Shown piece by piece: positions 20,897-34,080 of a DNA stretch of 64,000 nt (its first letter is position 1; every line of letters begins with the position of its first letter). The notes below the pieces were generated by a model. That model was not told where the DNA came from. It made no database searches and saw only the letters and a program-made list of their open reading frames with translations. Made by a program: the position numbers and the translations under genes. The DNA comes from Parvibaculaceae bacterium (GTDB lineage Bacteria; Pseudomonadota; Alphaproteobacteria; Parvibaculales; Parvibaculaceae): positions 372,001 through 436,000 of the forward strand of contig JAPWJY010000008.1 of NCBI GenBank assembly GCA_028283765.1. Reading direction: 5' to 3'.

Positions 20897-23060
20897 TCAG
20901 GCCGCCTTTTGCCGGCGCTCCCGGATCAGGCCCAGAATTTCGGAAGCTGCGGCGGGGATGTTCGTGCCCGGACCGAAAATGGCGGAGGCACCCGCCGATT
21001 TCAGGAAAGCGTAGTCCTGAGCGGGGATAACGCCGCCACAGACGATCAGGATGTCGCCCGCACCCGCCGCGCGCAGTTCCTCGACAAGGGCGGGCACCAG
21101 CGTCTTGTGTCCGGCGGCAAGGCTCGAAATGCCGATGACATGGACGTCGTTTTCCACCGCGTCGCGGGCCGCCTCGGCGGGCGTCTGGAACAGCGGCCCC
21201 ACGTCAACGTCGAAGCCCAGATCGGCGAAGGCGGTCGCGATCACCTTGGCGCCCCGGTCATGGCCGTCCTGGCCCATCTTGACCACGAGCATGCGCGGGC
21301 GGCGGCCTTCCTCCTCCGCGAATTCATCGATTTCGCGGCGGATTTTGGCAAAGCCCTCATCGCCTTCATAGGCGGTCGAATAAACGCCGGAAATGGTTTT
21401 TACCTCCGCGCGGTGACGGCCGAACACGGCCTCCATGGCATCTGAAATTTCGCCGACCGACGCGCGCGCGCGCGCCGCCTCGACGGCCAGCGCCAGCATG
21501 TTGCCATTGCCGCGCGCGCCTTCGGTGATGGCCTTGAGCGCGGCCTGACATTTGGCCTCGTCGCGCGTTTCGCGCATCTTCTTCAGGCGCGCAATCTGGC
21601 CCTCGCGGACCTTCACATTGTCCACGTCGAGAATTTCGATCGGGTCTTCCTTGGGGAGCCGGTATTTGTTGACGCCGACGATGACTTCCTCGCCCCGGTC
21701 GATGCGCGCCTGCTTGCGGGCGGCGGCCTCCTCGATCTTGAGCTTGGGCATGCCGCTTTCGACGGCCTTGGTCATGCCGCCCAGTTCTTCCACTTCCTCG
21801 ATCAGCTTCCAGGCTTCCGTGGCAAGCGAATGGGTCAGGCTTTCGACATAATAGGAGCCGCCGAGCGGGTCGATGACATTGGTTATCCCCGTTTCATGCT
21901 GAAGCACGAGCTGGGTGTTGCGCGCGATGCGGGCCGAGAAATCGGTGGGCAGCGCAATGGCCTCGTCGAGCGCGTTGGTGTGCAACGACTGGGTGCCGCC
22001 GAGCACGGCGGCCATGGCCTCCACCGTGGTGCGGATGACGTTGTTGTAGGGGTCCTGCTCGGTCAGCGACACGCCCGATGTCTGGCAATGGGTGCGCAGC
22101 ATCAGGGACTTGACGTCTTTGGGGTTGAATTCGGCCATGATCCGCGACCAGAGCAGGCGCGCGGCGCGCAGCTTGGACACTTCCATGAAGAAATTCATGC
22201 CGATGGCGAAGAAAAAGGACAGGCGTCCGGCGAAATCGTCGACGTCGAGACCGGCGGCCAGCGCGGCGCGGACATATTCCCGCCCGTCGGCCAGCGTGAA
22301 GGCCAGTTCCTGCACCTGGTTCGCGCCCGCTTCCTGCATGTGGTAGCCGGAAATCGAGATGGTGTTGAACTTCGGCATATGGGCCGAGCAATAGGCGATG
22401 ATGTCCGCGATGATCCGCATCGAGGGCGCGGGGGGATAGATGTAGGTGTTGCGGACCATGAACTCCTTGAGAATGTCGTTCTGGATCGTGCCCGAGAGCT
22501 TGTCCTGACTGACGCCCTGTTCCTCCGCCGCCACGATGAAGTTGGCGAGGATCGGGATGACCGCGCCGTTCATGGTCATCGACACCGACATTTCATCGAG
22601 CGGGATGCCGTCGAACAGGATTTTCATGTCCTCGACGCTGTCGATGGCGACGCCCGCCTTGCCGACATCGCCGACGACGCGGGGGTGGTCGCTGTCATAG
22701 CCGCGATGGGTGGCGAGATCGAAGGCGACCGAAAGACCCTTCTGGCCCGCCGCGAGGTTGCGCCGGTAGAAGGCGTTGGAATCTTCGGCGGTCGAGAAGC
22801 CCGCATATTGGCGGATGGTCCAGGGGCGGCCCGCATACATGGTCGCCTGCGGCCCGCGGGTGAAGGGGGCGAAAGCCCGGCAGCGTGTTGGCGTCGTAGC
22901 CTTCGGCGGCGATCCGTTCCAGATCTTCCGCTGTAAAGAGCGGCTTTACGTCAATGCCCTCCGGCGTGTGCCATGTCAGCTTGCCGAGGTCGCCCTTTGT
23001 GGCTTTCTCGGCAGCCTTCTGCCAATCCGCCAACGTCTTCTTTTCCCACGCCATTGCCAT
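20897..23060 (-). pseudogene. scpA: Methylmalonyl-CoA mutase, apparent single-base frameshift near the N-terminus
   Basis: Joined, the frames give a mutase of about 720 residues, the normal length. The first part (from MAMAWEKKTLADWQKAAEKA, ATG at 23060) reads to YDANTLPGF and then shifts; the second frame resumes with [20 protein letters not shown] and runs to the stop at 20897. The shift is one extra base in the A-run at 22872-22874 (TTT instead of TT on the coding strand). The downstream frame has the (beta/alpha)8 substrate domain and the B12 domain with DGHDRG near its C-terminus. The enzyme converts methylmalonyl-CoA to succinyl-CoA. The shift may be a real mutation, a sequencing error or, less likely, recoding. 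If translation started at the ATG at 22840, the product would lack about 73 residues. Confidence 0.88.
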
Positions 23061-31705: not shown

Positions 31706-32044
31706 ATGACCTATGTGGTGACCGAAGCTTGCATTCGCTGCAAGTACATGGATTGCGTGGAAGTGTGCCCTGTGGATTGTTTCTACGAGGGCGATAACAT
31801 GCTGGTCATCCATCCTGACGAATGTATCGACTGCGGTGTTTGCGAGCCCGAGTGCCCGGCTGAGGCGATCAAGGCGGATACGGAGACGGGGCTGGAGCAA
31901 TGGCTCGACCTCAACGCCAAATATGCCCAGAGCTGGCCCAACATAACGATCAAGCGGGACGCCCCTGCCGATGCCGATGAAATGCAGGGCATCGAAGACA
32001 AGTTCGGCAAGTTCTTCAGTCCCGAACCTGGCCAGGGTGATTGA
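31706..32044 (+). CDS. fdxA: Ferredoxin FdxA (7Fe, [3Fe-4S][4Fe-4S])
   Basis: A 112-residue seven-iron ferredoxin: [26 protein letters not shown] supplies the first cluster ligands (with the longer C-x7-C pattern of 3Fe clusters) and [12 protein letters not shown] the second. The C-terminal extension [13 protein letters not shown] is typical of FdxA. It carries electrons in the cytoplasm; partners are unknown. The gene follows TerB and precedes the carD leader. Confidence 0.95.
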
Positions 32045-32558: not shown

Positions 32559-34016
32559 ATGGGAAAAGCGATGGTCACAACATCGACAAAGGCATCCAGA
32601 CCTTCAGGCTCCGGCAAAGCCGTGGCCAAAGGGGGCGCGGTGCGTTCTTCGGCTGCCCGGCAAGCCCCCAAGGCTGAAGCCAAGGGCGGCAAAGCCGCGC
32701 CTGCCAAGGCCCGGCCCGCAGCTGCCGTTTCTGCCGCAGCTTCTAAAGGATCATCAAAGGGGCCGTCGGCCAAGCCCTCAAAGCCCGTGAACGGGTCATC
32801 TCCCGGCGCGGCCGCGAAACCGGCTGCCGCCAAATCCGCGGTTAAAGCTGCCGCGCCTGCCAAGAAGGCGGCGGACAAAGGCGCTGCGTCCAGAGCGAAG
32901 CCCACCGCCGGGCCGGCTGTAAAGCTGGCCGTCAAGGCCGCGGTTAAAACGAAGACATCATCCCCGGCCGGGACGGCGGCAAAAGCAGCCACGCCTGCCG
33001 TGAAGGCCCCTGTAAAGATTAAGGCTTCCAGCCACAAGAAAGCCGACAAGACGGCCGCGACTCCCAAGGGCGCAGCCGGTGTTTCCCGTGTAATGTCTGT
33101 GAAAGTAGCTGAAACAGTGTCCCAGCAAGCGTCCACCAAGTCCAAGACGGCCAAATCTGCAACCGCTCCCGCTCAGGCAAGTGAAGCCGCCGCCAAACCT
33201 GCGAAGACTTCCAAGGCCTCCAGCACAAGCAAGGCCACCGGCACAGGCGAAGCATCTGCGTCCAAGCGTGCGGCCGCGAAGCCGGCGGCGAAAGCCGCAA
33301 GCGCGACCTCTGCAAAAACGCCTCCCGCCCAGAATGGCGCGGCCAAGCTTGCCGCTGCCCAGAAGGCGGCGACCGCGAGCAAGGCCGCTGCCGCCGCCTC
33401 GGCGGCCACGCCTGCCGAGCCTGTGCCCGCTGCCGCTGTTGCGGTGAAGCCCGCGGCTGCGGCGCCGGTGTCGTTCAAGGCCAAGGAATTCGTGGTCTAT
33501 CCCTCACATGGTGTGGGCCAGATCCTCGATATCGAGGAACAGGTCGTGGCCGGGCACCGGCTTGAGCTGTTCGTCATCAATTTCGACAAGGAAAAGATGA
33601 CGCTGCGCGTGCCGACCCACAAGGCGCAGGCCGTGGGCATGCGCAAGTTGTCCCACGCCGATGTGGTCGGTTCCGCTCTTGAGACCCTGCGTGGCCGGGC
33701 GCGCGTCAAGCGCACCATGTGGAGCCGCCGCGCCCAGGAATATGAAGCCAAGATCAATTCCGGCGATCTGATCTCGATCGCGGAAGTGGTGCGCGACCTC
33801 TACCGTTCCGAGCGCCAGCCGGAGCAGTCCTATTCCGAGCGCCAGCTTTATGAGGCGGCCCTTGACCGGATGGCGCGCGAAGTCGCCGTGGTCGAGCGCA
33901 TCGCCGAGGATCAGGCGATTGCCCGGGTGACGGCCGCACTCGAAAGCGAAAGCGCCGCGCGCGCCAAGGCTGCCGACAAGCTGCTGGAAAAGTCCGGCGA
34001 TGAGGCGGTTGCCTAA
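32559..34016 (+). CDS. carD: CarD family transcriptional regulator with histone-H1-like N-terminal tail
   Basis: A 485-residue protein in two parts. From about residue 305 it is a normal CarD/CdnL protein: FKAKEFVVYPSHGVGQILDI is the RNA polymerase beta-binding Tudor-like domain, followed by the helical DNA-contacting part (RGRARVKRTMWSRRAQEYEA, SGDLISIAEVVRDLYRSE). Residues 1-300 are Ala/Lys/Pro/Ser/Thr-rich repeats like histone H1 or AlgP tails and probably bind DNA without a fixed fold. Ordinary CarD proteins in this class are about 170 residues. The ATG at 32559 is used; 32571 is an alternative. CarD stabilises open promoter complexes. Confidence 0.92.
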   Translation: MGKAMVTTSTKASRPSGSGKAVAKGGAVRSSAARQAPKAEAKGGKAAPAKARPAAAVSAAASKGSSKGPSAKPSKPVNGSSPGAAAKPAAAKSAVKAAAPAKKAADKGAASRAKPTAGPAVKLAVKAAVKTKTSSPAGTAAKAATPAVKAPVKIKASSHKKADKTAATPKGAAGVSRVMSVKVAETVSQQASTKSKTAKSATAPAQASEAAAKPAKTSKASSTSKATGTGEASASKRAAAKPAAKAASATSAKTPPAQNGAAKLAAAQKAATASKAAAAASAATPAEPVPAAAVAVKPAAAAPVSFKAKEFVVYPSHGVGQILDIEEQVVAGHRLELFVINFDKEKMTLRVPTHKAQAVGMRKLSHADVVGSALETLRGRARVKRTMWSRRAQEYEAKINSGDLISIAEVVRDLYRSERQPEQSYSERQLYEAALDRMAREVAVVERIAEDQAIARVTAALESESAARAKAADKLLEKSGDEAVA

Positions 34017-34045
34017 AGCCGCTGCATTCCAGATGACCCGATATG

Positions 34046-34080
34046 CGGGCTGGCTTCTTCAAAGGAAGCCGGCCCGTTTT
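34046..34080 (+). terminator. Rho-independent terminator of carD
   Basis: A stem of 12 bases (34046-34057) pairs with 34065-34076 apart from one T-G wobble, with a seven-base loop and a TTTT tail. It lies 30 bases after the carD stop. Confidence 0.85.

Follow-up and report, generated by a model that had tools for sequence, protein, structure and literature searches.

A CdnL/CarD protein with an N-terminal polycationic tail in Parvibaculaceae and similar tails elsewhere in the alphaproteobacteria

The CdnL/CarD proteins of Caulobacter, Rhodobacter, Mycobacterium, and Thermus consist of an RID module and a helical C-terminal domain with a wedge Trp, as does the core of the protein described here. 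CdnL is presented, in the portion of PMC4374960 that was available, as a standalone protein of 160–200 residues, and, in the available portion of PMC5324124, as conserved in alphaproteobacteria. In the excerpts of PMC8407463 consulted, CarD is proposed to activate alphaproteobacterial promoters lacking the −7T, and such promoters are many. The closest described tailed protein is Myxococcus xanthus CarD, in which a CdnL-like module is likewise joined to a basic, disordered tail. According to the parts of PMC4374960 and PMC8156234 that could be consulted, this tail lies at the C-terminus, includes an acidic part and RGRP AT-hooks, and acts together with CarG. The same part of PMC4374960 states that the HMGA domain is confined to CarD-containing myxobacteria and, in its authors' view, is probably the cause of the nucleoid localization of Myxococcus CarD, and in the excerpted text of PMC8156234 the tail of Myxococcus CarD is reported to be replaceable by human HMGA, H1, or the C-terminal region of H1. 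No description of N-terminal basic tails of CarD was found in the literature searched, which lacks most subscription papers.

The window, i.e., the whole 64-kb stretch of DNA that was analyzed, contains a carD/cdnL-like gene whose product has 481 aa, in contrast to the standalone CdnL proteins. Unlike Myxococcus CarD, it carries its tail at the N-terminus (where it is predicted to be disordered), lacks RGRP/GRP motifs in this tail, and is the only CarD of its genome. The features of the locus are as follows.

31706..32044 (+), fdxA ferredoxin, adjacent gene upstream (NF045490, 168.8 bits, cut-off 135)
32561..32568 (+), Shine-Dalgarno-like GGGAAAAG before ATG 32571, corresponding to AGGAAAG of Parvibaculum relatives
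32571..34016 (+), carD/cdnL-like gene encoding 481 aa with the basic tail at the N-terminus, preferred start ATG 32571
32571..33320 (+), tail residues 1–250, basic, with a net charge of +7 to +10 in each 50 residues and predicted disorder
33321..33467 (+), Ala-rich, nearly neutral, linker-like stretch, residues 251–299, net +3
33474..33650 (+), CarD_TRCF_RID, RNA polymerase β-binding Tudor-like module (Pfam PF02559, E 3.8e-13)
33675..33923 (+), CarD_C helical domain (PF21095, E 1.9e-24)
33720–33722 (+), wedge Trp, residue 384, invariant in the alignment
34045..34077 (+), intrinsic-terminator-like hairpin of 15 pairs, then TTTGCATTTA, 28 bases past the stop

The open reading frame spans 32553/32559–34016 (+), with ATG 32559 and GTG 32553 as alternative starts. 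The first-pass annotation had given the gene as 32559–34016; the frame is real, and its start is better placed at ATG 32571, 12 bases downstream, because the Shine-Dalgarno/ATG arrangement there matches the start of the relatives. The context is TGATGGGAAAAGCG-ATG-GTCACAACA in the window and, in an example from the relatives of genus 5 (Parvibaculum among them), GGGTATAGGAAAGACG-ATG-GCGAGCAAA. This start leaves a tail of 299 aa and a CarD of 182 residues, and the two Pfam domains confirm the earlier statement that CarD stands at the C-terminus behind a tail of about 300 residues, in the reverse order of Myxococcus CarD. As is common for alphaproteobacterial CdnL, fdxA is the neighboring gene, and FdxA, recognized by motif, lies upstream of 63 of the 73 named carD loci having at least 1500 upstream bases. 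A consensus scan for terminators found 11 such sites against 2.9 expected, and a promoter scan found none.

The core has the makeup of an ordinary CdnL, including the wedge Trp. With numbering from 32559, Pfam places CarD_TRCF_RID at aa 306–364 (49.7 bits, cut-off 23) and CarD_C at aa 373–455 (85.9 bits, cut-off 23.1). Trp384, Arg386, Arg387, Tyr421, and Arg424 are invariant in 29 of 29 alignment rows and, with a fixed numbering shift of 294 in place of an alignment to the Caulobacter sequence, correspond to Trp90, Arg92, Arg93, Tyr127, and Arg130 of Caulobacter CdnL, which form the wedge and basic patch. For the RID contacts with RNA polymerase (RNAP) in Caulobacter CdnL, Val39, Arg52, and Pro54, the same offset gives an invariant P348 and a nearly invariant R346, and L333 occupies the position of Val39. 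In the AlphaFold2 model built from the 29 rows (mean pLDDT 61.4 and pTM 0.44 for the whole), residues 301–460 reach pLDDT 78–91 per block. Foldseek matched CarD structures (8hvr_H, 0.89; 6edt_M, 0.90; 4l5g_A; TM by target 0.85–0.90) that come partly from RNAP complexes, 6edt_M and 8hvr_H being RNAP-bound CarD. From the family and these conserved residues, the core may bind the RNAP β lobe, with the Trp propping the upstream edge of the bubble. PF02559 has one other match in the genome, in a 1172-aa frame read from its length as Mfd; no other CarD copy was found in the genome, and the tailed form must therefore do the housekeeping job of CarD. An SMT3-CarD fusion with SMT3 first is a chain in seven solved entries (9e7v and others), one of them, 9e87, being a promoter complex of M. 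tuberculosis RNAP; RNAP complexes can thus accommodate an addition at the CarD N-terminus. For Caulobacter, the available part of PMC5324124 reports a failure to obtain a strain whose only CdnL bore an N-terminal FLAG tag.

The tail is composed of 34% Ala, 15% Lys, 12% Ser, 9% Pro, and 7% Thr, with a net charge of +46 and with zero aromatic residues and zero Cys. Bacteria have H1-like Lys-Ala-Pro proteins such as AlgP and HC2, and a typical H1 tail contains about 40% lysine. Like linker histone H1, AlgP, and HC2, the tail is of low complexity in Lys/Ala/Pro, is predicted to be disordered, and is net positive; it differs from them in its 15% lysine and its attachment to an RNAP-binding module. 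Of the earlier label of an H1-like, Ala/Lys/Pro-rich tail, the basic, Ala/Lys/Ser/Pro-rich character is retained, whereas the lysine content lies below that of a typical H1 tail; it is 15–16% in the genus of the window versus 24–33% in 31 measured tails of other genera. Pfam and NCBIfam gave no family above cut-off on the tail (an "mfd" match at aa 177–369 scored 19 bits against a cut-off of 800), and no Pfam match to HC2 or linker histone appeared at E up to 1. The winged-helix globular domain of histone H1 was not found, either as a Pfam match or as predicted structure in the tail, which also contains no AT-hook motif (RGRP/GRP) and no [ST]PKK motif. From a net +10 over the first 50 residues, the charge declines to +3 over the 49 residues next to the core, so the core-proximal end looks like a linker. 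Residues 1–300 have pLDDT 41–55 and zero secondary structure in AlphaFold2, and the tail is probably disordered, as suggested by this model and by composition, low AlphaFold2 confidence in a low-complexity tail being weak evidence of disorder.

The annotation had further spoken of a fusion. No fused donor was found, and the tail is an extension of low complexity whose length varies. At E up to 10, a search of its own genome returned the tail and nothing else; this search scored 150 of its 191 first-look candidates, and the handling of low complexity may hide further matches. A plasmid search (28 records) gave no lead. When the window was scanned for basic, Ala/Lys/Pro/Ser/Thr-rich stretches of 60 aa, this tail (939 nt) and a 195-nt stretch at 22149–22343 were obtained, and 0 of 10 Markov-3 simulated windows gave any such stretch. 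The Ala/Lys-rich stretch at 22149–22343 (+) was rejected as a gene; it is probably a shadow, because it is antisense to a 647-aa ORF, read as methylmalonyl-CoA mutase.

We favor, with a probability of about 0.55, the reading that this is an alphaproteobacterial CdnL/CarD whose polycationic tail grips promoter DNA non-specifically and raises CarD occupancy. CdnL/CarD is a general activator that binds RNAP and stabilizes the open promoter complex. In the proposed mechanism, the tail, which appears to be joined to the core by a nearly neutral Ala-rich linker, may hold nearby DNA non-specifically, probably upstream promoter DNA. This grip could lead to higher CarD occupancy and to a higher affinity of RNAP for the promoter, and selection may act on charge rather than on sequence. 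The HMGA/H1-type tail of Myxococcus CarD would do the same from the opposite end, and by this analogy an added non-specific affinity for DNA is the most likely contribution of the tail to RNAP-bound CarD.

Two other roles for the polycation are considered unlikely, and to the same degree. In line with the first-pass annotation, which had suggested a coupling to chromosome compaction, the tail could make CarD a chromatin-like nucleoid factor, coating or condensing DNA across the whole genome and tying its compaction to transcription, as the polycationic, Ala/Pro-containing composition, its predicted disorder, and the probable part of the HMGA domain in the nucleoid localization of Myxococcus CarD (PMC4374960, in the portion available) might suggest; the lysine density of the tail is modest, however, the search of its genome yielded no free-standing relative, and the core argues for work at promoters. 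Alternatively, the tail could mainly bind RNA, ribosomes, polyphosphate, or acidic proteins, or drive RNAP condensates, since an unstructured Lys/Ala-rich tail may be a generic polyanion binder and this one is without an AT-hook, but a core seated on promoter-bound RNAP would make DNA the nearest polyanion.

Parvibaculum and Tepidicaulis belong to the Parvibaculaceae (NCBI taxonomy), and the family forms one side of a single branch with support 90 in a tree of 183 distinct CarD cores. Among the 37 family genomes searched (G000–G036), CarD was matched in 35, and the upstream region, read in all 35, contains an Ala/Lys-rich stretch ahead of the core in every one. An intact tail with a start is present in 32 genomes, corresponding to 33 loci because one genome has two copies; these tails are 148–302 aa long with net charges of +29 to +61. 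In G004 the N-terminal part of the tail reads N. Two of the 35 genomes have a frame change inside the tail, G002 (L042/L091) and G003 (L031; Tepidicaulis marinus), for which sequencing error, a real break, or slippage in an A-run are alike possible. In 12 of 12 close pairs, which were hand-picked and some of which share a row, dN/dS was 0.06–0.27 for the tail and at most 0.06 for the core; for the window and its sister species the values were 0.27 and 0.03, so the tail changes several times as fast as the core. Together with the family-wide stretch, these ratios indicate a translated tail under loose constraint. Charge and length show rank correlations of 0.74 (33 family tails) and 0.71 (33 tails elsewhere), as expected of any evenly charged tail. 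The idea that net charge is held more tightly than length was not borne out, with coefficients of variation of 0.19 and 0.17, respectively, in the 33 family tails; the data show tails staying positive, not a set charge being kept. Tail residues 156–188 (33036–33134) are identical in the sister species and have no counterpart in the aligned other genera, in contrast to the drift in the rest of the tail.

In the class as a whole, 387 genomes were searched, of which 351 gave a match, and the following fractions hold for the best-scoring 150 listed places, a biased sample. The frame stays open for at least 240 aa in 63 of the 150, and all 63 were fetched because many GC-rich frames are simply open upstream; for this reason open-frame length itself was dropped as a measure of tail length. 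A tail of at least 80 aa was found in 40 of the 63, comprising all six listed family members and 34 of the 144 other listed genomes. These 34 span 20 other family-level groups, and all of their tails are net positive, from +19 to +77; the remaining 110 of the 144 have no long tail (23 read, 87 judged from a frame length below 240 aa). The tail-length rule is heuristic: L031, L032, L042, L088, and L109 were set by hand for the tree count, and L032, L042, and L088 for the family-group count; some lengths include pre-start codons (L021, L025, L035, L043, L067, L093, and others), and L035, the sole listed genome giving group f5, has exactly 80 aa from its likely start. Such a tail, of 80 aa or longer, is also present in 40 of the best 80 named loci out of at least 591, including Bradyrhizobium, Nitrobacter, Afipia, Hyphomicrobium, Devosia, and Beijerinckiaceae as well as some metagenome bins; five of the 40 (L099, L100, L101, L109, and L133) are family members that had entered the counts above. 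In a sample of 150 genomes of the phylum, CarD_C was present in 47, all of this class. A stop is visible in 193 of 195 sampled loci, and none of these 193 has more than 45 residues past core residue 160, so that in this sample the survey of domain order proposed in the first-pass annotation found long tails only at the N-terminus. That the tail arose independently, as suggested there, holds relative to Myxococcus, whereas a singular fusion is ruled out by the family-wide tail and the long tails in 20 other family-level groups, which make this a recurrent variant.

On the core tree, the tail label changes at least 19 times, eight of them forced by starred branches; this number is rough because 88 of the 180 inner branches are poorly supported (FastTree, 165 columns, with 12 identical-core rows dropped before the count). 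Such a patchy distribution would suit a near-neutral low-complexity extension, produced by codon slippage and doing little harm or serving only solubility or turnover, as would the length range of the family tails, three short repeat rows in the DNA, the two frame changes, and a charge no steadier than length. Yet dN/dS lies well below 1 in all 12 pairs, and every intact family tail (33 of 33) and every listed long tail elsewhere (34 of 34) is net positive, which leaves this explanation somewhat more doubtful than the two alternative binding roles.

In the window, the in-frame starts that lie up to 60 codons from the core are GTGs at −15, −8, and 0 with no visible Shine-Dalgarno sequence; the sister species G001 has a single such start, the GTG at 0, and many Parvibaculum relatives have an ATG 45–57 codons ahead of the core, without a clear Shine-Dalgarno sequence, that is absent from the window. 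The start near residue 290 that the first reading had allowed for was accordingly dropped, and loss of the tail from the mature protein through such a start or by cleavage is highly improbable, given that the sister species shares only the GTG at 0, relatives have the same N-terminal start context, and the tail codons are under selection.

Returning to the DNA-gripping tail, a broader form of this reading can be put forward only tentatively: alphaproteobacteria may repeatedly have given a general open-complex factor an N-terminal H1-like polycation, such that RNAP would carry a chromatin-type tail at CarD-dependent promoters while the sequence drifts and disorder and charge stay. Should CarD bear a long polycation in many lineages, the published picture of a small standalone CdnL would be incomplete for the class, and a DNA-tethering function may escape studies of species without the tail. 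The repeated gain or loss of the tail would also offer a ready comparative experiment on promoter opening.

At the other end of the protein, the window (33999–34013) encodes DEAVA as the C-terminus, where EAA is the ending in most genus-5 relatives; a C-terminal AA motif is required for CdnL degradation in Caulobacter (PMC5324124, in the part available). A separate observation concerns ten loci, mostly from Hyphomicrobiales families, with a short CarD start (L108, L110, L119, L121, L122, L127, L140, L141, L144, and L152). Upstream of that start the frame is open to a shared GTG and encodes a basic extension of about 54–65 residues (VAGKTRQKSKK... or similar), with pN < pS in the pairs shown. 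In most of the ten, the internal ATG follows an AAGGAG-like signal, and a GCGTG...CACGC inverted repeat was read just before the GTG in all of them. Judged from these sequences, loci of this type possibly contain a two-start gene or encode a longer protein than assumed.
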